Source of the DNA: Bryobacterales bacterium
GTDB taxonomy: Bacteria; Acidobacteriota; Terriglobia; Bryobacterales; Bryobacteraceae
Direction of reading: 5' to 3'
Length of the DNA: 18,029 bases
Assembly: GCA_003139735.1 (NCBI GenBank)
Contig: PLGA01000579.1
Coordinates: 49,246 to 67,274, forward strand
Shown here piece by piece: positions 3,364 through 16,237 of this stretch (its first letter is position 1; each line of letters opens with the position of its first letter). The notes beneath the pieces were generated by a model, which saw only the letters and a list, made by a program, of their open reading frames with translations, was not told the origin of the DNA and searched no databases. A program made the translations under genes and the position numbers.

Positions 3364-3876
3364 TCAACGCGGCGACCCTTTCTGAATCAGGCGTTCAAAT
3401 CCATCGAGGTCATTGCCGGCGGCCATCGCGATCGCCAGCAGTTTTTCCAGCGCTTCCACGGTGGTTGAGAACTGCACGGTAATTTCGCCGGGGCGCAATC
3501 CGATTCCCGCTGGTAGGTCCGCAAGTTCTTGATTTACAATCCCCACAGGCGCCTCAACGAGCGTCTTGGCCTGCTCCGTCCAGGCCTGGTTGAGGTTCGT
3601 GAGAACCCGTGCGAACCGTTCTCGACGCCGGCGCTCGTAATAGACGGATTCTCCCGAGGCAAGCCGCCGTAGATGGACAATCAACTCTTCGCGGTCGGCG
3701 ACGCCGTTTGTCCCGACCTGTTGATGCACACAGGGTTGGAGGATTTGTTGGGCCCGGCGGCGCCGGACCCGAAGCATACGTTCCAGCGTCGGGCGGTCCA
3801 CCCACGGATATGGAAGCGCCCTAAGCTCCGCGCAGACCTCCTCCAGATGGCCGCACCAGGTCGGTTTATCGGGCAT
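3364..3876 (-). CDS. Conserved-looking hypothetical protein, 170 aa, possibly DNA-binding
   Basis: I do not recognise the family. The protein starts MPDKPTWCGHLEEVC, has a basic segment (ERMLRVRRRRAQQILQP, about residues 32-48) that could be the recognition part of a helix-turn-helix, a second arginine cluster (YYERRRRERFARV), and a C-terminal half rich in helix formers with IQFSTTVEALEKLL-like character. No signal peptide or membrane segment. It has GC-rich codon use like its neighbours, so it is likely a real gene rather than a shadow. It is divergent from the tyrosine recombinase, with 120 bp between the starts, and the pair may form a unit in which this protein assists or regulates recombination; that is inference from position only. 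Its stop codon lies in a short sequence resembling those at the 3' ends of the fkp-like and rep genes. Confidence 0.6.
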   Translation of the reverse strand: MPDKPTWCGHLEEVCAELRALPYPWVDRPTLERMLRVRRRRAQQILQPCVHQQVGTNGVADREELIVHLRRLASGESVYYERRRRERFARVLTNLNQAWTEQAKTLVEAPVGIVNQELADLPAGIGLRPGEITVQFSTTVEALEKLLAIAMAAGNDLDGFERLIQKGSPR

Positions 3877-3996: not shown

Positions 3997-4968
3997 GTGG
4001 AAACTGATTCCGATGTAGTCCCCGCCTCCGGCGCCGCGGAATTGATCCGCTTGGCGGGCGAGACCCGCCAGTTCCTCGCGGCCGCCAAGGCGGCAGGCAC
4101 CCGCCGCGCCTATCGCGCCGACTGGGATCACTTCGATGCGTGGTGTCGCCACCACTCCCTGGACGCTCTCCCGGCCACGCCCGAAACGGTGGCCCTGTAC
4201 ATCACGGCCTTAGCCGCCAGCCATAAGCCAGCCACGTTACGCCGCCGCTTGACCGTGATCGGCCTGGCGCATCAGGCCGCCGGGCGCCCCTCGCCGGCGA
4301 GCATGCAGCAAACACTGGTCGGCGAGACCCTGAAAGGCATCCGCCGGACGCTGGGGACCGCTCAAACCGGAAAACGGCCGTTCTTCACCGAGCAGGTGCG
4401 GGCCATGATCGGGGCTTTGCCGGAGAACCTGCAAGGCCTGCGGGATCGGGCGCTCCTATTGATCGGCTTCGCGGGCGGTTTCCGGCGTTCCGAGCTGGCG
4501 GGACTGGCCGTCGACGATATCGCGAACGAGAAAGACGGGCTGGTGGCCACCCTCCGCCGCTCCAAGACCGACCAGGAAGGCCGCGGCAGGAAAGTCGCTA
4601 TCCCGTATGGCTCCCACCCGGAGACGTGTCCGGTCCGCGCCTATCGGGATTGGCTGGAGGCGGCGGGTCTGGAGCAAGGGCCAGTCTTCCGGGAGATCGA
4701 CCGGCATGGGCGGCTGCAAGGCAAACCCCTGCACAAAGACTCGGTTGGGCTGATCGTGAAGCGGGCCGCCGCCCGGATTGGCCTGGACGCCGCGGAATAC
4801 GCCGGCCACAGTTTGCGCGCCGGGCTCGCCACCCAAGCCTACCTGAATGGCGCCAACGAGTTGGCCATTATGCAGCAAACCGGCCACCGATCGCTGGCCA
4901 CCGTCCGCAAATACATCAGGGAACAGTCTCTATTCCGCGACAACCCGGCCGGGAAGCTGGGGCTGTAA
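3997..4968 (+). CDS. Tyrosine recombinase / phage-integrase family site-specific recombinase
   Basis: 323 residues, usual size for XerC/D-like and integron-type enzymes. Residues about 20-110 form the SAM-like core-binding domain (TRRAYRADWDHFDAWC); about 125-315 form the catalytic domain. The full catalytic set is visible: R163 in GGFRRSEL, K190 in RRSKTDQEG, H271 and R274 in GHSLRAGLA, H297 in TGHRS, and the nucleophile Y306 in VRKYIREQS. It should therefore be active in cutting and rejoining DNA by a 3'-phosphotyrosyl intermediate. The start is the GTG at 3997, since a stop codon precedes it; no Shine-Dalgarno sequence. It ends 7 bp from the end of the fkp-like gene. No tRNA gene or obvious att repeats were seen nearby. 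Roles open: resolving replicon dimers for the neighbouring plasmid-type module, or mobilising a small cassette with the divergent 170-aa protein. Confidence 0.93.
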   Translation: METDSDVVPASGAAELIRLAGETRQFLAAAKAAGTRRAYRADWDHFDAWCRHHSLDALPATPETVALYITALAASHKPATLRRRLTVIGLAHQAAGRPSPASMQQTLVGETLKGIRRTLGTAQTGKRPFFTEQVRAMIGALPENLQGLRDRALLLIGFAGGFRRSELAGLAVDDIANEKDGLVATLRRSKTDQEGRGRKVAIPYGSHPETCPVRAYRDWLEAAGLEQGPVFREIDRHGRLQGKPLHKDSVGLIVKRAAARIGLDAAEYAGHSLRAGLATQAYLNGANELAIMQQTGHRSLATVRKYIREQSLFRDNPAGKLGL

Positions 4969-7975: not shown

Positions 7976-9538
7976 TCAGAACAGGGTTTCCACTTTCCGG
8001 CGCGTGAACTCTTCGAAACTGGGAAGATCGAGCTCCGTGGCCACTTCCTCGCGTAGTTTTCGCAAGGCGAATCCGCGAAGCGTCGGTTCCGGCCAGCGGT
8101 ATTGTGGGGCGCCTTCCTGAATGCGCGCCATGTGGTCTCGAACACGCTGGTCGATGGCGGATTGCGCCATTTTGTTCTTCATGTGGGAGTCGGTCTCGGC
8201 TATTAGAAAGGCTTCGTAGCGTTCGCGCTGTTCGTAGGTCTCAAGTTCTTGCTGCGCTTCGCGAGCGCGAGTTTCCATATCGCGCTGCTGAGCCTGCTCG
8301 CGCAGCATGCGTTTATGCGTGGTCTCAAAGCTCGCCGGCACGGGATAATTGCACGTCAGCAGGTATACGTAAAACCCCGGTGGATTCTGGATCGGCTCCC
8401 GGGTGCGCTCCTTCCGCTTTACCTCCATATCGCCCCATTCGATCTGGTCGAGCGCCGGTTGTTCTTCCGGTAAGTCGATGAGAAGTTGGCGGGCGCGGTC
8501 CTCGCGAACGCCCCGCTCCACAAGCGCCCTTAAAACCTCGCCTTGCCTGGCGGTGAGCAAAATCGCCCTCTCCGGATTCTCCGCCGCGCGTATGTCCGCC
8601 GCGCTCACGAATGCGCTGCCAGCCCACAGACAGAGTTTGTAATCCGATTCGTCGGTGGTTTTGGTCACATCCCAGCTCCACAGGAACCCCTTCTCTTTGA
8701 GATCGTCGAGGCTTGGTCCAAACTGTTGTTTAATGCGTGACAGGGCCTTAAAACACTGGAGACCCAGCAATAAGCACAGGTCCGAATACTTCCTTTCGGC
8801 GCATTGTTCGCGGCGGCTCGCGTAGAACCAGATCTGCAGCAGCGGCACCAGGGCCTTGGCGATGTGCAACTGGAGTGTTCGATAAACGTCGTAGTCGATC
8901 GGCAGCGTGTGCCGGTTATTGACATTCTCGAGTTGCCATTCGCTCAGCCAAACGTAGTTTTCCTCGGCTATTGCGCCGTCCTCGAGAACCTCGCCCATCG
9001 CAACCGACCGCTGGAAAACATGAAATACATCGCGGGCGTACTTTTTCCGTCCGGCGAAGTATACAACGCCTTCCGATTCGACGCCGGTGAGCGTCATTCG
9101 CCTTAGCCACTCCCAGATTTCGCGGTAGTTGCGGCCCCCGTCGGTCATTCTAAGCGTCTCAATCATAGCCGCGGAGGAGAAACGCACCGGGTTCACAACC
9201 AGCCCATCCCGCTTCCGAATCTGCTCAATGATCTTCTGAAAAGCAAAGTACTTATCCTGATCGGCTGTTGTGGGCAAACCGAGCTCCGCGGCCGGATAAA
9301 TCGTAGCTTTAGCCTGCACGCGCTGTCCGTCGTCGGTGCGAACCTGAAGCGTGACGGTCTTCGACAAAGTGCGCAAGCGTTTACTGGACGGCGTGAAGAA
9401 GCCAAATGTATTTAGATTCTTCTCCACCCGCACGATCGTTCGAGGTGCGGCCGAAGGATTGGGAAGGAGTAGTTGCTGATGACGGGAACGTGGCTGGCGC
9501 ATGGAGTTTAGGTCTGTAGGCATCGTGCCATAGGGCAT
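7976..9538 (-). CDS. Plasmid replication initiator protein (RPA/RepA type)
   Basis: About 520 residues. After a short proline-rich leader, the initiator domain starts at VEKNLNTFGFF (about 38-48) and continues to about residue 340, with PTTADQDKYFAFQKIIEQI, an SSAAMIETLRMTDGGRNYREIWEWLRRM segment, and a block ending DESDYKLCLWAGSAF. This layout fits the replication initiator protein A family, winged-helix proteins that bind iterons and open the origin. Residues about 400-450 are highly charged and probably coiled coil, followed by a C-terminal domain of unknown role ending FTRRKVETLF. The start is taken as the ATG at 9538; a TTG at 9550 or ATGs at 9523 and 9502 are alternatives and none has a Shine-Dalgarno sequence. 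It is divergent from the parA operon, with the iteron region between. The family call is from recognition, not search. Confidence 0.7.
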   Translation of the reverse strand: MPYGTMPTDLNSMRQPRSRHQQLLLPNPSAAPRTIVRVEKNLNTFGFFTPSSKRLRTLSKTVTLQVRTDDGQRVQAKATIYPAAELGLPTTADQDKYFAFQKIIEQIRKRDGLVVNPVRFSSAAMIETLRMTDGGRNYREIWEWLRRMTLTGVESEGVVYFAGRKKYARDVFHVFQRSVAMGEVLEDGAIAEENYVWLSEWQLENVNNRHTLPIDYDVYRTLQLHIAKALVPLLQIWFYASRREQCAERKYSDLCLLLGLQCFKALSRIKQQFGPSLDDLKEKGFLWSWDVTKTTDESDYKLCLWAGSAFVSAADIRAAENPERAILLTARQGEVLRALVERGVREDRARQLLIDLPEEQPALDQIEWGDMEVKRKERTREPIQNPPGFYVYLLTCNYPVPASFETTHKRMLREQAQQRDMETRAREAQQELETYEQRERYEAFLIAETDSHMKNKMAQSAIDQRVRDHMARIQEGAPQYRWPEPTLRGFALRKLREEVATELDLPSFEEFTRRKVETLF

Positions 9539-9651
9539 GCAGCAAGACAAGAACGATTGTGAATGTTGTATGTAAATACTATGAACACAAACATATAAAA
9601 CCTATGACATCTCGTAAGGTATTGAAACAGCGCGTCTTATATGGCATTTCG

Positions 9652-9833
9652 TTACGTTGAAGTACGGGAAGTCTTACGTTGGAGTACGGACAGGTTTACG
9701 TTCCAGTACGGGGATCTTCCTTTGAGGTACGGCATATTTTACGTTGTAGTACGAGTGCTAGGCATGAGCCTCGATATTTGAGAGCGGGCAGGAGGAGCGG
9801 CTCCTCCGAATAGCTCCTTACGTTGAAGTACGG
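9652..9833 (+). repeat. Type A iterons (TTACGTTGAAGTACGG), five tandem plus one
   Basis: Six copies of a 16-bp sequence: 9652-9667 (TTACGTTGAAGTACGG), 9674-9689 (one change), 9696-9711 (TTACGTTCCAGTACGG), 9717-9732 (degenerate, 13 of 16), 9739-9754 (TTACGTTGTAGTACGA) and, after a gap, 9818-9833 (identical to the first). The first five start 22, 22, 21 and 22 bp apart, so they sit on one face of the helix about two turns apart. All six have the same orientation. Each copy contains two CGTA-like half sites about 10 bp apart when read on the reverse strand. Binding by the neighbouring initiator is the obvious inference. Confidence 0.85.
9791..9807. repeat. GC-rich hairpin in the origin region
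   Basis: GGAGGAG and CTCCTCC flank a 3-base CGG spacer, giving a perfect 7-bp stem. It sits in the gap between the fifth and sixth type A iterons. There is no T-run, so it is not a typical terminator; it could be a structure used in replication or an operator. Confidence 0.5.
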
Positions 9834-9840
9834 AACCTTA

Positions 9841-9884
9841 ACGGTATAAGGTATTTGTACGGTATAGTTTACTACTACGGTATA
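9841..9884 (+). repeat. Type B elements (ACGGTATA), three copies at exactly 18 bp
   Basis: ACGGTATA occurs at 9841-9848, 9859-9866 and 9877-9884; the second and third extend to TACGGTATA. The 18-bp spacing differs from that of the type A iterons, suggesting a second protein or binding mode. The same 18-bp-phased element recurs at 11129-11231, 11689-11730 and 16194-16237. Its TACGG core is shared with the end of the type A iteron. Confidence 0.8.
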
Positions 9885-9980: not shown

Positions 9981-10193
9981 ATGCCGAACAGGAATCTTGC
10001 GTCGATACCCTACTTACGTACCGCCGAAGTGGCCGATATTCTCAGAGTGACGAAAAGGACCCTTAAGAACTGGCTTCAGAAGGAGTTCATTGCGGAGCCG
10101 CAACGCAATCCCTCCAATGGGTATCGTCAATGGACTCTGGAGGATATCGAGGCTGTACGGCGGTTATTGCAAGAGAGGGATGGCGCTAAGTGA
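9981..10193 (+). CDS. Small MerR-like helix-turn-helix DNA-binding protein
   Basis: 70 residues, consisting of a MerR-type HTH domain only. YLRTAEVADILRVTKRTLKN (about residues 11-30) is the helix-turn-helix, followed by the wing-like GYRQWTLEDIEAVRRLL (about 47-63). There is no coiled coil or effector domain, so it resembles the excisionase/MerR-like small regulators rather than full MerR activators. It is the first gene of the par operon: its stop overlaps the parA GTG start by 4 bp, so the two are translationally coupled. Probable jobs are repression of the operon promoter, or serving as a partition or origin accessory factor like the HTH portion that some plasmid ParA proteins carry fused at their N-terminus; the ParA here lacks such a domain. 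The start ATG lies right at the predicted transcription start. Confidence 0.75.
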   Translation: MPNRNLASIPYLRTAEVADILRVTKRTLKNWLQKEFIAEPQRNPSNGYRQWTLEDIEAVRRLLQERDGAK

Positions 10194-11002
10194 TTCGGTT
10201 AGTAATCTCAAACCAGCGCGGCGGCGTCGCCAAAACCACCACGGTGGCGAATTTTTCGCGCTATTTGGCGGACCGGGGCCACCGGGTTTTGGTCATCGAT
10301 ACCGACCCCCAGGGATCCATAGGAACAGTTCTGGGGCTGAAGCCAGCAAAGTACTTACACGATTTTGTCGTCTACAACCATTTGTTTAAGGATTGCATTG
10401 TGGAGGCCTGCCCAGGAGTGGACGTTTTGTGCGGGAACCGCGAAACCGTGAAGACCGAAGGCCACCTGATGGGCCAGGTGGCGCGGGAATTTGTCTTCAA
10501 CAACCTATTTACCCAGGTCGAGAAGGGCTACGACGCCGTGCTGATTGACGTGGCGCCTTCGATCAACCTGTTGCAGACCTGCGCCATGGTATACGGGAAA
10601 TCCCTGCTGATTCCCGTCAGCATGGATCCGCTCAGCCTGCAAGGCGCCGCCGCCAGTATCGAGACGGCGAGGATGCTGAGTTCCCTGATCGGAATCGAGA
10701 TTCAACCCGTGGCGCTGCTGCCCGTGATGGTCGACCGGCGGCTGCAAATCACCGAGGTCGTCATGGAATCGCTGAAGGACCTCTCGGTGCGCACCAGGAT
10801 TCCTATGCTGCACGGAATCCGCACCGATACGACGGTAACGAAATGCAACCGGGCAAAGAGATTTCTAGCCGACTTCGAACTCCGCTCCAAGGCCCTTGAG
10901 GACTACAACGTGGCGTTCGAGGAATTATCGAATCTGCTCAATGGACAACCAGGCAAGGACCAGGACGAAAGCCAAGAAGCCGTCAACCCGGCCAGAGCTT
11001 AA
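10190..11002 (+). CDS. parA: ParA-family partition ATPase
   Basis: 270 residues, no N-terminal DNA-binding extension. The deviant Walker A is SNQRGGVAKTTT (about 7-18), Walker A' is VIDTDPQG (35-42), and Walker B is VLIDVAPS (117-124). These mark the ParA/MinD family, ATP-dependent dimers that ride the nucleoid to move plasmids or chromosomes apart. The usual signature lysine before GGV (K-G-G) is replaced by R10, while the phosphate-binding K15 is kept. The GTG start overlaps the upstream stop codon; AGAGAGG a little upstream may act as Shine-Dalgarno. The last ~60 bp probably overlap the start of the winged-helix gene. The partner in the usual ParB position is not a ParB, making this a non-canonical partition operon. 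Confidence 0.93.
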   Translation: MIRLVISNQRGGVAKTTTVANFSRYLADRGHRVLVIDTDPQGSIGTVLGLKPAKYLHDFVVYNHLFKDCIVEACPGVDVLCGNRETVKTEGHLMGQVAREFVFNNLFTQVEKGYDAVLIDVAPSINLLQTCAMVYGKSLLIPVSMDPLSLQGAAASIETARMLSSLIGIEIQPVALLPVMVDRRLQITEVVMESLKDLSVRTRIPMLHGIRTDTTVTKCNRAKRFLADFELRSKALEDYNVAFEELSNLLNGQPGKDQDESQEAVNPARA

Positions 11003-11681
11003 GCCAATCAGCTACGAGGAGATCATGGGCAATGCCGGCATGTCCGGCTTTGTGTCGTTCCTCGACGCTGCCGAGACCGAACCTGCCGCTTCGACGCTGC
11101 CCGCACTGCCGGATGTCATCGTATCCGATACGGTAGTAGAGTCGAATACGGTAAAAGAAACAACCTCCGTACAAGAACGTAAAACCAGCACCGTACATGA
11201 ACCTGTTACCGTAGCGAAAACTGATACCGTACCAACTCAGTCATTTCAGGACAGCAGACGGTGGCGAGTAAAAAGGGCCCGAGGGGTTGAGGACGGTCAC
11301 TCGCTGGCGGAGCAGGAGGTTTATCGAACACTGTGGAAAATCGGCGCGCCCGAAGGGGAAGATCCCGAAGCCAACCGGACCGTTCGGATCGGTTATGACC
11401 GGCTAGCCGGTCTGGTCAGGCTGAGTTGGGTGACCGTGAAGGCGAACTTGCGCAGCCTGGAGAGGAAACTCGCGATTGAAGTGGTCGCAGCGGAGGATTC
11501 CGCCAGCAGGGAAGGCAAACAGTACTGCGTTTATTCGACCAATGCGATTTGGGCCAGGCGTCAATCGGCCGGATTGCTGTGGGTCAGAAGAACCCGAGGG
11601 GTCGAACTGCTGACGGATGCTTCCGGCGCTACCCTGGGTGAAACTGGAGATGCCCACACCCCATTTCCACACCGTACTTGA
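10941..11681 (+). CDS. Winged-helix DNA-binding protein in the ParB position, with internal hexapeptide repeat
   Basis: About 246 residues if started at ATG 10941, overlapping parA by 62 bp; ATG 11025, after the parA stop and preceded at only 3 bases by GAGGAG, is the alternative (218 aa). The N-terminus is basic. Residues about 62-97 form a hexapeptide repeat built on T-V: SDTVVE, SNTVKE, TTSVQE, TSTVHE, PVTVAK, TDTVPT. The C-terminal half (about 118-235) looks like a winged helix: HSLAEQEVYRTLW, RIGYDRLAGLVRLSWVTVKA as recognition region, then NLRSLERKLAIEV. No ParB motifs (GERR, KorB/SpoOJ HTH) are present. I infer a centromere-binding partner of ParA. The DNA encoding the hexapeptides is itself an 18-bp-phased array of the type B element, and the stop codon lies within a type A element, so this gene probably carries binding sites for itself or for Rep. 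Confidence 0.72.
   Translation: MDNQARTRTKAKKPSTRPELKPISYEEIMGNAGMSGFVSFLDAAETEPAASTLPALPDVIVSDTVVESNTVKETTSVQERKTSTVHEPVTVAKTDTVPTQSFQDSRRWRVKRARGVEDGHSLAEQEVYRTLWKIGAPEGEDPEANRTVRIGYDRLAGLVRLSWVTVKANLRSLERKLAIEVVAAEDSASREGKQYCVYSTNAIWARRQSAGLLWVRRTRGVELLTDASGATLGETGDAHTPFPHRT
11129..11231. repeat. Type B/type A element array embedded in the winged-helix coding sequence
   Basis: TACGGTA occurs at 11129 and 11147, TACCGTA (its complement) at 11207 and 11225, and two intermediate elements lie at 11166-11171 (TCCGTA) and 11190-11195 (ACCGTA). Successive six-base cores start 18, 18, 24, 18 and 18 bp apart. CCGTACAAGAACGTAA at 11167-11182 is a reverse-oriented type A iteron (13 of 16). The first two elements point right and the last ones left, making the array roughly symmetrical around 11180. 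Confidence 0.75.
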
Positions 11682-11730
11682 AAGTAACACGGTAACGTTA
11701 GCTAATACGGTATAAGCTTTGTATACGGTA
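11672..11730. repeat. Third A+B cluster, across the winged-helix stop codon
   Basis: CCGTACTTGAAAGTAA (11672-11687) is a reverse-oriented type A element (14 of 16 against the iteron) that contains the gene's TGA. ACGGTA follows at 11689, 11707 (as TACGGTATAAG) and 11725, exactly 18 bp apart. Offsets from the A element are 17, 35 and 53 bp. The remaining 41 bp to the end of the SBBP gene show no hairpin or terminator. Confidence 0.75.
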
Positions 11731-11771
11731 CTGTAATCACAAAACAAAGAAGAATAGGCCTCGGACAGCTA

Positions 11772-14700
11772 CTAGCGTATGCCCGCGGTTTTGTAGCTGT
11801 AATCGGCGTACTGCCAGACGACGCCAATCTGCGACCATAAGCGCACATAGAGTGTGCTGCCATCGGTGGGCAGGGTTGTAAAGGTCATCGACGTATTCGA
11901 TCCCAGCGCGCTGCTATAGATCTCTTTACCGCCTGGCGCTATCTTGCTGAGGTAAAGCCAATATTCGGAAACCCCAACCCCGCCGGACCACCGGAAGGTA
12001 ACGGTGGAACCGGGCAGGGTAGCGCCGGCGGCGGGGCTGATCATGACCGCCGGCGAAGGAGTGGCGGTCTTGGAGAGATCCGAAACCTGTGAGAGATCCG
12101 GCGAGACAGCGCTCGAAAGCGCATACCGGAACGCGCCGACCGCGAAGTCAGGGCCGTCGGCGTTCGTGAGCGCTATGACTACCTTCACGATCGGAGCTCC
12201 CGTGGCCGCGAAGACCCTGGATTGGGGATAGGACATGCCGTTCATCCTGATGGTTAAGGATCCCGAAGATGTCGTGTAGAAGGTCGCGGCGATCGTGCCG
12301 AGATCGTCAGGCAACGCCTCGAAGCCGAATGTCCACACCGGCTGGGAAAGAGTAATGGTGAGATTGGGGAGACCGAACCAATTGGTTTGCGTATTCCATG
12401 CAAGCGTTGGATTGAAAAGGGCGTTGTATGGATCGACTATCGGCAAGAGGGCATTGGCGTCCACGCGTTGCGAGTTGGGGGATACGGCCCAGCCCCAGGC
12501 GTCGGGAACCGTAAACCTGGACATCGCGGCGTTGAAAGTGAGGCCCAGAACGCCGTCGGTGAGCTGAGTCGCTGTGGGCGGGGTGTAAAAGTTGTACTCG
12601 GGGAAGGAGGAAAAGTCAAAAGCAGCGGACGGAGTAGCGGCAAGATAGGCTGCCAGCGAGGCGGAATTCGTGGGCGGCGCGATCTGGATAAGAGCCGCGG
12701 CGCTTTGGTAGCCGTAATCCAGGAATTTCCAGGCGGAGCCGATTTCCGACCAGAGACGAACATAGACCGTGCTGCCGCCGGTGGGTAAGCCTGTAAGCGT
12801 TGTCGATGTGTTGGTTCCCTGGCTGCCGCTGTAGATCTCTTTTCCGCCTGGAGCCAAATTGCTGACGTAGAGCCAGTATTGGGAGACGCCAATCCCGGCG
12901 GACCATTGGAAGGTCACGGTAGAACCGGGCAGGGTGGCGCCATTAGCGGGGCTAATCATGGCGGCAACCGGTGAACCTTCGGCCGTAAAACTGTAATCGG
13001 CGTACTGCCAGGCGCCGCTCATCAGCGACGACAGGCGCACGTAAATTGTGCTGCCGTCGAGGGGCAGGTTCGTCACCGTCGATGCCGTTTGGACGCCGGC
13101 GTTGATACTGTCAAGATCGCCCCCGCCGGGAGCCACCTTGCTGACGTAAAGCCAGTATTGGGAATTCCCCGCCCCGGCGGACCATTGGAAGGTCACGGTG
13201 GAGCCGGGCAGGGTGGCGCCGTTTAGCGGGTTCGTAAGCGCAGCGGCAATCGGGATTGCGGCTATATAGGTGTAATCGATATATAGCCAGCCGGAACTGG
13301 TCTTCGAACCGATGCGCGCATAGATCAATCCGCCATTCAGGGGCAGGTTTGTCAGGAGTCGCGACGTACCGGCTCCCAGAACGCCGCCAAAAATGTCCGT
13401 CCCCCCTGGTGCGATGCCGCTGACGGAAAGCGTGCATTCAATAAAACTGCCGATGCCCGTCCATTGAAAAGCCACGCTGGCGCCAGGCAGCGTGGACTGG
13501 TTGGGAGGGCTGACGATCATCGCCGGGACCGTCCAGTTCCCACTGAGTCCCCAGCCCGTCGCAGCACTCAAGTTGGCCGATTGCATGTAAATGTTCGTGA
13601 CGCCGGCCATCGGCGGCAGAAATGAGATCGCCAGATTCAGGGTCAAGACATTCCCTGCCGCCGACACGCTCGATCCGGCGCCGCTCAGGAAACACTGGCT
13701 GTTCTGCTTCATGCCGCTGCCGGGGGTAAGCGTTCCCGCCGGCGGGCCTCCCGCGTCCGTCAGTAAGGACAAGGTGTTTGCGGCTCGGTTATAGACCACC
13801 GCACACCCATTTGCGACGTTAGGCGTCGAATTGAACAATACCGATACGGTCGTCAGGTCCGTTACGCCGCTGGGATCGGTAAACTGAAAGCCGAACGTCT
13901 GCGAGGCGCCGCCTCCCGAATTCGGCGTTACCCCTTGGTTGACGGGCGGCGAACCGGAGTCCACTTCCGTCAGGAACGCTCCATAATTGTCGGCGTCGAC
14001 GGATTGATAAGGGTTCCGCAGCGGAAAGTTGGTGGAGAGGGTCCAACCCGCCACATAGACGTTTGCCGACGACACCGCCACGGCCGTGGCGGTGTCGGCG
14101 CCGTTTCCTCCGAGATAGGTCAAGTAGCCCAAGGTCCCCGTGGCGCTTATTCTGGCCAGAAATGCGTCGCAATCTCCAGCGTTGGAACTTTGAAACGCAT
14201 TGGCGACGGGCAGATCCGTAGAGTAGGTGTAGCCCGCAACGTATGCCGCGCCGCTCGAATCCACCGCGATCGCATTGGCGACATCCATTCCGGAGCCCCC
14301 CAGGTAGGTGCTGTAAGCTAAGGTTCCGGAAGCATTCACTTTCGTCACAAAAGCGTCCACCGTCCCATTGAGCGACGATTGCAGCGGGTTCAGCAGGGGA
14401 AAGTTCACCGAACTGGTGACTCCCGCGAGATAAGCGTTCCCCTGCCAGTCCAAAGCGATCGCCTGGGCTGCCTCAGGGTAGCCGAGCGAGCCGCCGCTCC
14501 CGCCCAAATAGGAGCTAAATAACAGCGAATTCCCATCGGCCGCGAGCCGGGTCACAAACGCGTCCTGGCCGCCGCCGGAAGCGCTTTGAAATGCGTCCGC
14601 CACCGGGAAATCGGCCGACCAGGTCGACCCCGCCACCCAGGCGGTCCCTGTCGTGTCCACGGCGATCGCGGCGCCGTGATCGGTATTCGACCCGCCTAGA

Positions 14701-15953
14701 TAAGTGCTGTATATCAGGCGGCTCCCATCGGCGGACAACTTGGCGACGAAAGCGTCCTGGCCTCCGCGATTGGCTTTCTGCCAGCCGCTCGCCGGGAATT
14801 TCAGGGACGTCGCGTCTCCTACAACATAGGCGGCCCCGGCCTCATCCACGGCAATTCCATTGCCGGAATCCGACGCGCTTCCACCGAGATACGTGCTGTA
14901 CGCCAAGCTGTTGCCGGCGGCGGACAATTTCAGGACAAACGCGTTTTTGTTGCCCGCGAGCTGCGACTGCAGCGGATCGACCACTGGGAAGTCTTGCGAT
15001 GTTGTCGATCCCGTGACATAGGCTGCCCCGGAGGCGTCCACCGCAATTCCGTACGCTTGGTCGTTGCCAAAGCCGCCGAGGTAGGTGCAATAGACCAGCG
15101 CGGTGCCCGCGGGGTTCAGTTTCGCGACAAAAGCATCGTCGCCCCCGGCGTTGAAATTCTGCACGGGATTGGCGGTGGGCAGGTTGTAAGACGCGGTGAA
15201 GCCCGCAAGATACGCCGCTCCCGTCGAGTCTACCGCCAAGGCGTTCGCCGCATCGGGGCCCGACCCGCCCAGGAGCGTACTGTAGGAGATCGCCGGATCG
15301 ATAATCAAAGGCAGCGATGCATCGTACTTGCCGATCGCGAAACTCACGGTTTCACCCGTCAGGACGAACCGCGCATCCACGGCAACGCGCCGGCCATCGC
15401 GTTCCTGGTATACGATGGGCGCCTCTTCGCGAAACTCCTCGGCGCCGGTCAGGATCGCCAGACTGCCATCCTCTCCGATGCGCAGTTTGCCGCCGCCGAG
15501 ATACCGTACATGAATGGCCGAAAGGTCCGCCCGCGGAGCCACTACGAACTCGGACTTCAGGTTTGGTCCGGCGCCCCCGTAAAGCATGTCGATTCCCGGA
15601 TAGAGATTCCGATATACGACGCCCGCGTACAAGGGCTGCGCCAGCAGCCATCGGTCCTTCGGCCCAGTCAAGAAATTCGCCGCTCCGGGGAGGCGGTTTC
15701 CGGCTTCCAGCCGGGAAGCGCGAACGGCCCCCTCGAAGTGCATGCGGAGGGTTTTGCCCGCCATGCGGAACAACACTTCGCCGGGGGAGAAATAGGCCGT
15801 CAACCCGGGGGCCTTTGCCATAAAGCGGACCGCCGGAGGCGCTTGGCCATGGTTCGCCAGAAAGAACAGCGGCACGGGTTCTCTTCGTCCCGCACCCGCG
15901 GCTAGAATCGCGCAATTCGCCAGCAAGAGCATCCGGTATCCGCACAGCGCCAT
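11772..15953 (-). CDS. Large secreted SBBP-repeat (beta-propeller) protein with C-terminal Ig-like modules
   Basis: 1393 residues. A hydrophobic N-terminus (MLLLANCAILAAGAG from an internal ATG at 15932, or from 15953) looks like a signal peptide, so export is likely. Residues about 30-215 match the domain that usually precedes SBBP repeats (ANHGQAPPAVRF, ending PLIIDPAISYS). Seven ~63-residue SBBP repeats follow (about 220-665), each with STYLGG, AIAVD, GAAYVAG and DAFVAKL. Next is a domain common in Solibacter proteins (NSGGGASQTFGFQFTDPSG to GLSGNWTVP), then four ~90-residue modules marked by ATLPGSTVTFQWS, YWLYVSK, APGG and YVRLWS; an unrelated ~200-residue domain is inserted before the fourth. 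No enzyme residues, sorting signal or anchor were recognised. Probably an extracellular binding or structural protein. Its flanks carry the two homologous A+B clusters, and its 5' region has two palindromes. Confidence 0.88.
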   Translation of the reverse strand: MALCGYRMLLLANCAILAAGAGRREPVPLFFLANHGQAPPAVRFMAKAPGLTAYFSPGEVLFRMAGKTLRMHFEGAVRASRLEAGNRLPGAANFLTGPKDRWLLAQPLYAGVVYRNLYPGIDMLYGGAGPNLKSEFVVAPRADLSAIHVRYLGGGKLRIGEDGSLAILTGAEEFREEAPIVYQERDGRRVAVDARFVLTGETVSFAIGKYDASLPLIIDPAISYSTLLGGSGPDAANALAVDSTGAAYLAGFTASYNLPTANPVQNFNAGGDDAFVAKLNPAGTALVYCTYLGGFGNDQAYGIAVDASGAAYVTGSTTSQDFPVVDPLQSQLAGNKNAFVLKLSAAGNSLAYSTYLGGSASDSGNGIAVDEAGAAYVVGDATSLKFPASGWQKANRGGQDAFVAKLSADGSRLIYSTYLGGSNTDHGAAIAVDTTGTAWVAGSTWSADFPVADAFQSASGGGQDAFVTRLAADGNSLLFSSYLGGSGGSLGYPEAAQAIALDWQGNAYLAGVTSSVNFPLLNPLQSSLNGTVDAFVTKVNASGTLAYSTYLGGSGMDVANAIAVDSSGAAYVAGYTYSTDLPVANAFQSSNAGDCDAFLARISATGTLGYLTYLGGNGADTATAVAVSSANVYVAGWTLSTNFPLRNPYQSVDADNYGAFLTEVDSGSPPVNQGVTPNSGGGASQTFGFQFTDPSGVTDLTTVSVLFNSTPNVANGCAVVYNRAANTLSLLTDAGGPPAGTLTPGSGMKQNSQCFLSGAGSSVSAAGNVLTLNLAISFLPPMAGVTNIYMQSANLSAATGWGLSGNWTVPAMIVSPPNQSTLPGASVAFQWTGIGSFIECTLSVSGIAPGGTDIFGGVLGAGTSRLLTNLPLNGGLIYARIGSKTSSGWLYIDYTYIAAIPIAAALTNPLNGATLPGSTVTFQWSAGAGNSQYWLYVSKVAPGGGDLDSINAGVQTASTVTNLPLDGSTIYVRLSSLMSGAWQYADYSFTAEGSPVAAMISPANGATLPGSTVTFQWSAGIGVSQYWLYVSNLAPGGKEIYSGSQGTNTSTTLTGLPTGGSTVYVRLWSEIGSAWKFLDYGYQSAAALIQIAPPTNSASLAAYLAATPSAAFDFSSFPEYNFYTPPTATQLTDGVLGLTFNAAMSRFTVPDAWGWAVSPNSQRVDANALLPIVDPYNALFNPTLAWNTQTNWFGLPNLTITLSQPVWTFGFEALPDDLGTIAATFYTTSSGSLTIRMNGMSYPQSRVFAATGAPIVKVVIALTNADGPDFAVGAFRYALSSAVSPDLSQVSDLSKTATPSPAVMISPAAGATLPGSTVTFRWSGGVGVSEYWLYLSKIAPGGKEIYSSALGSNTSMTFTTLPTDGSTLYVRLWSQIGVVWQYADYSYKTAGIR
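11775..12051 (-). repeat. Fourth C-terminal Ig-like module of the SBBP protein
   Basis: Encodes GATLPGSTVTFRWSGG to the C-terminus. At DNA level it closely resembles the modules at 12700-13525 (for example GTAATCGGCGTACTGCCA occurs at both 11800 and 12992), indicating recent duplication or gene conversion. It is separated from the others by an unrelated segment. Confidence 0.7.
12700..13525 (-). repeat. Three tandem C-terminal Ig-like modules of the SBBP protein
   Basis: Three successive ~270-bp units, each encoding TLPGxxVxFQW, an APGG turn and a YVRL or YARI strand. Units 2 and 3 are closest to each other and to the fourth module; unit 1 (TLPGASVAFQWTGIG) is the most divergent. Confidence 0.7.
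13960..15296 (-). repeat. Seven SBBP repeats
   Basis: Seven units of about 190 bp, each encoding a ~63-residue SBBP repeat with the pattern S-T-Y-L-G-G, then A-I-A-V-D, G-x-A-Y-V-A-G, D-F-P and D-A-F-V. The fifth has a short insertion (GSLGYPEAAQ) and the last is degenerate. The family is predicted to form beta-propeller blades. Confidence 0.85.
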
Positions 15954-16112: not shown

Positions 16113-16142
16113 ACCGGCCGATGCGCCTTTTTGTTCGGCCTA

Positions 16143-16237
16143 CCGTACCAGAAAGTAAAGATCCGGCACGTGCATACCGTACCAGAAAGTAAGACGGTAT
16201 AAGATAGCACTACCGTATAATTTATCGATACTGTATA
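16143..16237. repeat. Fourth A+B cluster, upstream of the SBBP gene
   Basis: Two identical type A elements, CCGTACCAGAAAGTAA, at 16143-16158 and 16177-16192 (34 bp apart), followed by three type B-like elements 18 bp apart: ACGGTATAAG at 16194, ACCGTATAAT at 16212 and ACTGTATAAG at 16230. Offsets of the B elements from the nearer A element (17, 35, 53) equal those in the cluster at 11672. From 16238 to the next gene at 16349 nothing definite is seen. Confidence 0.75.

Follow-up and report, generated by a model that had tools for sequence, protein, structure and literature searches.

The coding sequence of a predicted winged-helix (WH) protein was found to carry, in the part that encodes its linker, a cluster of the short palindrome TACSGTA (the B site). 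The gene lies in an 18,029 bp stretch of DNA from a Bryobacterales bacterium (contig PLGA01000579.1, positions 49,246 to 67,274; hereafter the window), where it is the last of three genes in the order small helix-turn-helix (HTH) gene, parA and WH gene on the + strand; a rep gene is divergent from these, with A-type iterons in between (Table 1). Codon choice in the linker reveals selection at the level of DNA, site arrays recur in the genes of related WH proteins, and the type of site varies together with the WH domain. We consider that the three genes are likely to form a partition locus (probability about 0.6), in which the WH protein would be a ParB-like centromere binder with its array partly in its own open reading frame (ORF).

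Sites in the linker of the WH gene

Copies of the core ACSGTA start at 11130, 11148, 11190, 11208 and 11226, and four of the five belong to full TACSGTA sites, confirming the earlier reading that the T-V codons of the linker reproduce the B element. The spacing is 18, 42, 18 and 18 bp. The 18-bp period that had been proposed is seen in these steps and, in part, in three non-coding clusters (9841-9882, 11671-11731 and 16141-16235) that carry a TACSGTA-type element; the register is broken once in the linker, by the step of 42 bp. The linker codons include GAT ACG GTA, AAT ACG GTA and TCC GTA CAA GAA CGT AAA, and further ACC GTA, GTT ACC GTA and GAT ACC GTA; the encoded peptide has T-V or S-V, mainly at six-residue steps, as ACG-GTA, ACC-GTA or TCC-GTA. 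At 11166 an imperfect copy, TCCGTA, keeps the register of the first two sites; it doubles as the end of a reversed A-type iteron, around which the other linker sites lie and whose codons GTA CAA GAA CGT AAA are present in the orthologous locus L124 too.

TACSGTA is an odd palindrome, its own reverse complement except for the central G/C. The orientation of a site is therefore a matter of the centre base only, and the claim that right-pointing and left-pointing copies stand in near-symmetrical order around a reversed A element carries little weight; the six-base site at 11190 is, moreover, missing from that order. At one base of the first two linker sites the G of the window corresponds to C in genome G002, with the site retained. 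The whole window contains 13 copies of TACSGTA per 18,029 bp vs 0.8 expected, including single copies within other genes at 15502 and 16905.

Codon choice was compared among three orthologues of one genus, those of the window, L016 (whose contig, given equal length and positions, we take to be G003:C23) and L124 (of G002). Valine in the linker is encoded by GTA in 24 of 30 codons, whereas in the remaining gene this is so for only 4 of 37 (Fisher P 9e-9); in the long ORFs of the window the GTA share is 37/310. T-V pairs read ACS-GTA in 15 of 17 cases, and the hexapeptides have thus not been kept with other codons, in agreement with the original prediction that the DNA site is the selected unit; the exceptions are one ACA-GTC in L016 and ACC-GTC at the last T-V of L124. 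The base before Val is C or G in 23 of 25 pairs of T, S, A or P with V, compared to 27 of 58 other Thr/Ala/Pro codons of the linker, and all 22 GTA codons after T, S or A are preceded by C or G; CCT-GTT in one linker is a further exception. Swaps of T to A or S use GCC, GCG or TCC, by which the core NCS-GTA is kept. T, A, S and P all have codons with a middle C, and when valines with another Val six residues away were counted (n = 392, in 53 TV-linker proteins of the first 63 among the 120 homologues listed), T preceded 305 of them and A, S or P a further 62 of the other 87.

Synonymous recoding of each linker (20,000 recodings, with genome usage, uniform usage or permutation of codons within the linker as the null) gave a similar picture. 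The observed numbers of TACSGTA (4 in the window, 5 in L016 and 4 in L124) were never reached under genome usage and were reached with P 5e-5 or less under uniform usage (5e-5 in the window). Permutation within the linker yielded P 0.0046, 0.0068 and 0.0014, respectively, for TACSGTA number, and P 0.034 to 0.19 for the other statistics (ACSGTA number and 18-bp pairs). Given the GTA bias and the near failure of recodings to recreate the sites, the peptide does not explain the codon choice of the linker. The same site is found outside genes in all three orthologues. At cluster 3, which spans the stop codon, the window reads HRT-stop and another frame of the same DNA reads TPYLKVTR-stop; PYLKVTR is the C-terminus of three WH homologues known as proteins only. 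Among 51 WH C-termini, 23 are of the HRT/YRT style, 3 are PYLKVTR, 1 has a TV-type reading and 24 have neither. Taken together, these sequence comparisons support the view that the DNA site, and not the peptide alone, is under selection in the linker.

Arrays of other motifs in related loci

A total of 264 WH homologues were found at E <= 1e-3, of which 120 were listed; the genomes compared (G numbers) are taken to be Acidobacteriota. At many of the homologous loci the linker and the C-terminal tail contain a different short motif, in some cases found also upstream of the operon or past the stop codon. These motifs are CCTATAGG in L185, TTGAACGTTCAA in L219, CCCATGGG in L179 and L191, GGTATACC in L172 and L187, GTTTCATCCCC with its complement in L195, ACCTGTAAG in L194, CCACSGTGG in L178 and L186, YACWGTR in L188 and L189, and GATACTG in L168. 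Genome G874, which is in the phylum and outside the class, has TGAACGTTCA-type sites in linker and tail, mainly at 12-bp steps; six of them read VERS or IERS, and two read LNVQ in another frame of the same gene. Per kb, motif density was 6.59 in the N-terminus plus linker, 3.95 in the C-terminal tail and 0.12 in the WH-domain stretch, values which are inflated within the ORF by the choice of motifs after viewing the enriched words (25 of 34 loci); outside the WH gene it was 1.11 upstream, 1.12 downstream and 0.09 in the parA stretch. Two loci of this set, L175 and L184, have no site of the given motif and L176 has one. As judged from their sequences, ParA/WH cassettes elsewhere in the phylum carry arrays of their own, often palindromic, and such arrays are not private to the window locus.

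Three of these loci show further features. The site GTTTCATCCCCAGGGGATGAAAC of L195 (G351) has outer parts that resemble the half-sites of canonical parS (GTTTCA...TGAAAC). In L218 (G100) the WH relative has an in-frame stop, and CTACWGTAG sites extend past it. In L168, AGGAGAC occurs 13 times right after the WH gene, at +1119 to +1401 from the ORF start, in steps of 19-45 bp of which most are 21-23; this array is iteron-like, and a Rep relative is located in the same stretch.

Tests that use no chosen motif were based on 1000 synonymous recodings per ORF, scored for inverted 8-mer pairs and for 8-mers shared with the intergenic flanks. On either statistic, P < 0.005 was obtained for the WH ORF at 21 of 34 loci and for parA at 1 of 30; in out-of-sample loci the numbers were 3 of 6 (L216, L218 and L219) and 0 of 4, the misses being G456 (P 0.012), G313 and one fragment. 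Pooling gave 24/40 for WH vs 1/34 for parA, where the 40 loci include L217 (a C-terminal fragment that lacks the WH domain) and several ORFs that are truncated at the end of a contig or do not have an N-terminus of the usual kind. In a second control run, which omitted L217, inverted pairs had P < 0.005 in 12/39 WH ORFs vs 4/137 other ORFs, and sharing with the upstream side only had P < 0.01 in 11/39 vs 6/137. The controls of this run include some parA genes and some ORFs cut at 1800 bases; one L168 control ORF with a low P overlaps a second WH match of its contig. In-frame duplication may inflate the counts of inverted pairs, and affects flank sharing less. An earlier 8-mer test on the 34 loci, with wide flanks that made it too dilute and led to its replacement, gave only P 0.035 for the window (inverted pairs only) and P 0.0125 for L124 (direct repeats).

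The protein likely to bind the sites

The WH and parA genes are both shared widely among the loci, and a parA motif was found ahead of the WH gene at 30 of 34 loci and at 4 of 6 further loci. A small HTH gene is located 5' of parA at 20 of the 34 loci by tblastn and at no fewer than six more by eye, as well as in G874. Among the 23 loci whose small HTH was found by regular expression, the similarity of enriched 6-mers followed WH-domain identity (Mantel r 0.30, P 0.0002; partial 0.30, P 0.0002), and not the identity of the small HTH (r 0.05, P 0.25; partial 0.01, P 0.43). Because site type follows the WH domain rather than the small HTH, the WH protein is favoured as the protein that would bind the array.

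In the AlphaFold model a winged helix is predicted with confidence from about residue 121 on, and stretches between residues 42 and 115 have low confidence and are probably disordered. Fold matches are generic winged helices of the MarR, CRP and other types, including 4rs8_B, which we take to be from the structure tied to the pNOB8 AspA-ParB-ParA system; this match is weak (Foldseek E 0.012, template modelling score 0.60 of target) and one among many WH proteins. The protein matches no family in a Pfam scan and has no convincing match in the PDB by sequence. A protein search of IMG/VR gave 0 hits. The conserved N-terminal segment, with NAGMSGFV invariant in 33 close homologues and a weaker pattern across the wide WH family, may be the part that contacts ParA.

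TACSGTA in other genomes

Pairs of TACSGTA at 18 bp were present in 8 of 237 family genomes; counted as places on one strand, there are 4 in G000, 6 in G002, 4 in G003 and one in each of five other genomes. Of the eight genomes, three belong to the genus and have the pairs at this locus. Within the genome of the window, 14 of 15 rows with ACSGTA pairs at 18 bp lie within 6.4 kb of the window contig, both strands being listed and some rows being one place twice. The pair in G218 is within a WH homologue about 35% identical over the aligned parts, where GAAAGGGATACSGTA repeats occupy the linker and tail and one more lies past the stop. A three-site pattern search of IMG/VR, used as a control, returned 61 stretches (L063-L123), with the array in an open frame every time. 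Coding repeats in these contigs such as VYGNA yield 18-bp TACSGTA as a by-product, which calls for caution with arrays of this kind.

Evaluation of the partition hypothesis and its alternatives

Under the partition hypothesis the array would function as a centromere in segregation. The WH protein would be an analogue of ParB that lacks the ParB fold; its winged helix would bind short palindromes (TACSGTA in the window) and its N-terminal segment would contact ParA. The long disordered linker and the tail would be free to vary, and selection may for that reason have placed much of the array there; array and WH domain would change jointly, giving each lineage its own site. The upstream copies, which may also serve as an operator, and the downstream copies would complete a compact centromere that moves with the gene. 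Chances seem even that this extends to a phylum-wide, ParB-independent partition protein with the centromere in its own coding sequence, the gene thus being a self-contained mobile segregation unit. On that evenly balanced reading, disorder of linker and tail would be a licence to store sites, with sites and DNA-binding domain diverging together, and the centromere would be inseparable from its binder.

Several observations weigh against the partition hypothesis. The Mantel correlation is modest and was obtained from related loci, and its 23 loci do not include the window or L124. In the recoding test 16 of 40 WH loci were not significant, and one of these misses is the WH ORF of the window (P 0.076 and 0.02 in the generic 8-mer test), which has a short site and variable flanks. 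All 14 other checked genes with at least two palindromic sites hold them in one frame, which suggests that the peptide or in-frame duplication also matters. The L126 contig, whose ParA is 79% identical to that of the window, has 0 B sites over the 3.6 kb that were scanned; a clear array is absent too, with only two- or three-copy repeats among the 20 repeat families listed. In addition, the matches of the winged-helix fold take in many regulators and an initiator besides a centromere-binding protein.

The main alternative, which we regard as unlikely, is a role of the WH protein in initiating replication, with the array in its gene as the origin. In phage lambda O and in staphylococcal Rep genes of the pSK41 type, origin iterons lie inside the initiator gene, and a site array in its own coding sequence is likewise what the WH gene has, with binding by the WH protein putative; the likeness is that the binder's sites are encoded in its own linker region, and the difference is that those initiators are unlinked to parA and that their arrays are not known to turn over between lineages. 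We give slightly less credence to the possibility that the sites are operators, at which the WH protein or the small HTH protein represses the operon, the intragenic copies being roadblocks or accessory sites and no centromere existing. A role of this type would suit the upstream sites of the three genus members and of six further motif-scored loci, as well as a fold like that of MarR and CRP regulators; however, the linker and tail sites (e.g., nine in L186), the downstream clusters and a window cluster 4.4 kb away exceed the needs of an operator, and the linkage to ParA also speaks against it.

It is improbable that the small MerR/Xis-like HTH protein binds the array and the WH protein bridges to ParA. 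The frequent position of the small HTH gene 5' of parA and the use of a separate site binder and adaptor in pNOB8-type systems would fit such a scheme, but motif similarity does not follow this protein, and L168, L188, L189 and L191 have similar small HTHs and motifs that are not the same. That the array is a mere by-product of the peptide repeat appears very improbable. Ordinary hexapeptide repeats do give 18-bp TACSGTA arrays, many of the 61 IMG/VR stretches being of the VYGNA type by eye and none having a WH relative or the searched ParA motif, and the frame is constant in most genes; yet the codon tests, the non-coding copies, the opposite-strand copies of non-palindromic motifs, the two frames in the G874 gene and the residue swaps that leave the DNA core in place all argue against this explanation.

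Relation to known systems

The locus resembles parABS (type I partition) in that a ParA/Soj-type ATPase is followed by a putative DNA-binding partner, in or near whose gene there are short palindromic sites. It differs in that the partner has no ParB_N domain or Pfam family (a ParB family, as in ParB_N or KorB-type partners, was found in 0 of 33 scanned members of set A1), the arrays of WH genes fill linker and tail, and the site varies by lineage. A centromere within the gene of its binder has a precedent in Bacillus subtilis, where parS is located inside spo0J. With the pNOB8 AspA-ParB-ParA system the cassette would share a winged-helix centromere binder, a ParA and a total of three proteins, binding by the WH protein being presumed; it differs in having a small HTH protein in place of the ParB adaptor and in the weakness of the fold match. 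The window's Rep belongs to PF10134, the family of RPA plasmid replicons. Its best relatives among 16 plasmid records are in Acidobacteria plasmids, the RPA-type replicons of Granulicella and Acidisarcina (30-32% identity), with a ParA gene nearby in two of three regions (pACIX901 and pACPOL2); in contrast to the window, no WH relative was found in PLSDB plasmids (tblastn, E 0.01). The remaining records are Rubrobacter and planctomycete plasmids and one other.

If the partition hypothesis is correct, protein disorder would be a place for writing cis-acting DNA sites, the constraints on the peptide and those on the DNA being superimposed. The joint divergence of WH domain and site over many lineages would offer a data set from which a DNA-recognition code might be read, and in which one might study how centromere and binder alter in step with function kept; an uncharacterised family without a Pfam match would be named as a testable partition factor.

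Locus layout

Table 1. Positions of the features discussed, numbered from the first base of the window.
Feature	Position	Strand	Remarks
Rep, replication initiator protein A family (PF10134), RPA-type	7976..9550	-	Pfam E 1.7e-7, 31.5 bits vs curated cut-off 27
A-type iterons TTACGTTNNAGTACGG	9652..9833	+	starts 9652, 9674, 9696, 9818; partial TTACGTT at 9739
B cluster 1, non-coding, 5' of cassette	9841..9882	.	ACGGTA at 9841, 9859, 9877
Small MerR/excisionase-like HTH protein, 70 aa	9981..10193	+	PF13411 E 8e-8
ParA (Soj/AAA_31-type ATPase)	10190..11002	+	PF13614 E 1.7e-34
WH protein gene, 246 aa, candidate centromere-binding protein	10941..11681	+	overlaps 3' end of parA
Conserved N-terminal segment PELKPISYEEIMGNAGMSGFVSFL of WH, possible ParA contact	10992..11063	+	NAGMSGFV
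Linker array, in predicted disordered linker	11129..11231	.	TACSGTA 11129, 11147, 11207, 11225; ACCGTA 11190; imperfect TCCGTA 11166
Reversed A-type iteron CCGTACAAGAACGTAA	11167..11182	-	codes V-Q-E-R-K
Winged-helix domain	11295..11612	+	AlphaFold, ten-residue blocks over residues 121-200: mean predicted local distance difference test score 93-95 in 7/8, 82 in 1/8
B cluster 3, spanning WH stop codon	11671..11731	.	A'-type site 11672-11687; B at 11689, 11706, 11724
B cluster 4, non-coding	16141..16235	.	A' at 16143, 16177; B at 16194, 16211; imperfect TACTGTA near 16229

The ParA of the window matches phrog_164 (ParA-like, E 1.7e-35) and, by sequence, ParA/Soj chains of the PDB. Like the window, L124 and L016 have B sites about 105-125 bp 5' of the small HTH gene. 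A counterpart of B cluster 4 is located 5' of a zinc-ribbon gene in L124, and none was seen in L016. An Rfam scan of the window gave 0 matches at gathering scores; one tRNA-Ala gene was predicted on the G002 contig and no tRNA gene on the window's contig.

Genomic setting

The contig of the window (119 kb) and a contig of G002 (60 kb) have many blocks in common, including about 8 kb across the locus, and G456, of another genus, has a related cassette in a contig of 5.62 Mb, where dnaA is about 32 kb and a ParB_N gene 15 kb distant. The plain plasmid setting that had been envisaged for the array lacks support as worded. In G000, G002 and G003 a ParB_N gene with adjoining canonical parS is on another contig, as is DnaA; a ParB_N gene is also present in 14 of 14 genomes checked, and canonical parS within one mismatch in 5 of 5. 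The cassette appears to be a mobile or exchangeable module, here next to a plasmid-type rep and able to reside in a contig of chromosome size. The window may be part of a chromid, an integrated plasmid or a chromosome.

The region of the G456 cassette is G456:C1 718641-751952. A second cassette, in G313:C1 103583-146733, has dnaA at a distance of about 42 kb and a ParB_N gene at 25 kb. Relatives of a tyrosine recombinase (window 3997-4968, + strand) are found near 9 of 38 other cassettes and relatives of a small protein (window 3364-3876, - strand) near 13 of 38, which suggests a mobile module. GC skew turns from negative to positive around the rep/par locus, at about 55-65 kb in G000:C194 and 10-20 kb in G002:C247, as at an origin; this switch is weak and local. 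In L174 (G001, same genus) the neighbouring glycosyltransferase is 83% identical, Rep (38%) and the WH ORF are divergent and no ParA was found in the stretch; this is perhaps a different cassette in the same neighbourhood. Downstream of the WH gene, at 11772-15953 on the - strand, the window encodes a large secreted-looking repeat protein, the gene of which has four imperfect 266-bp repeats.
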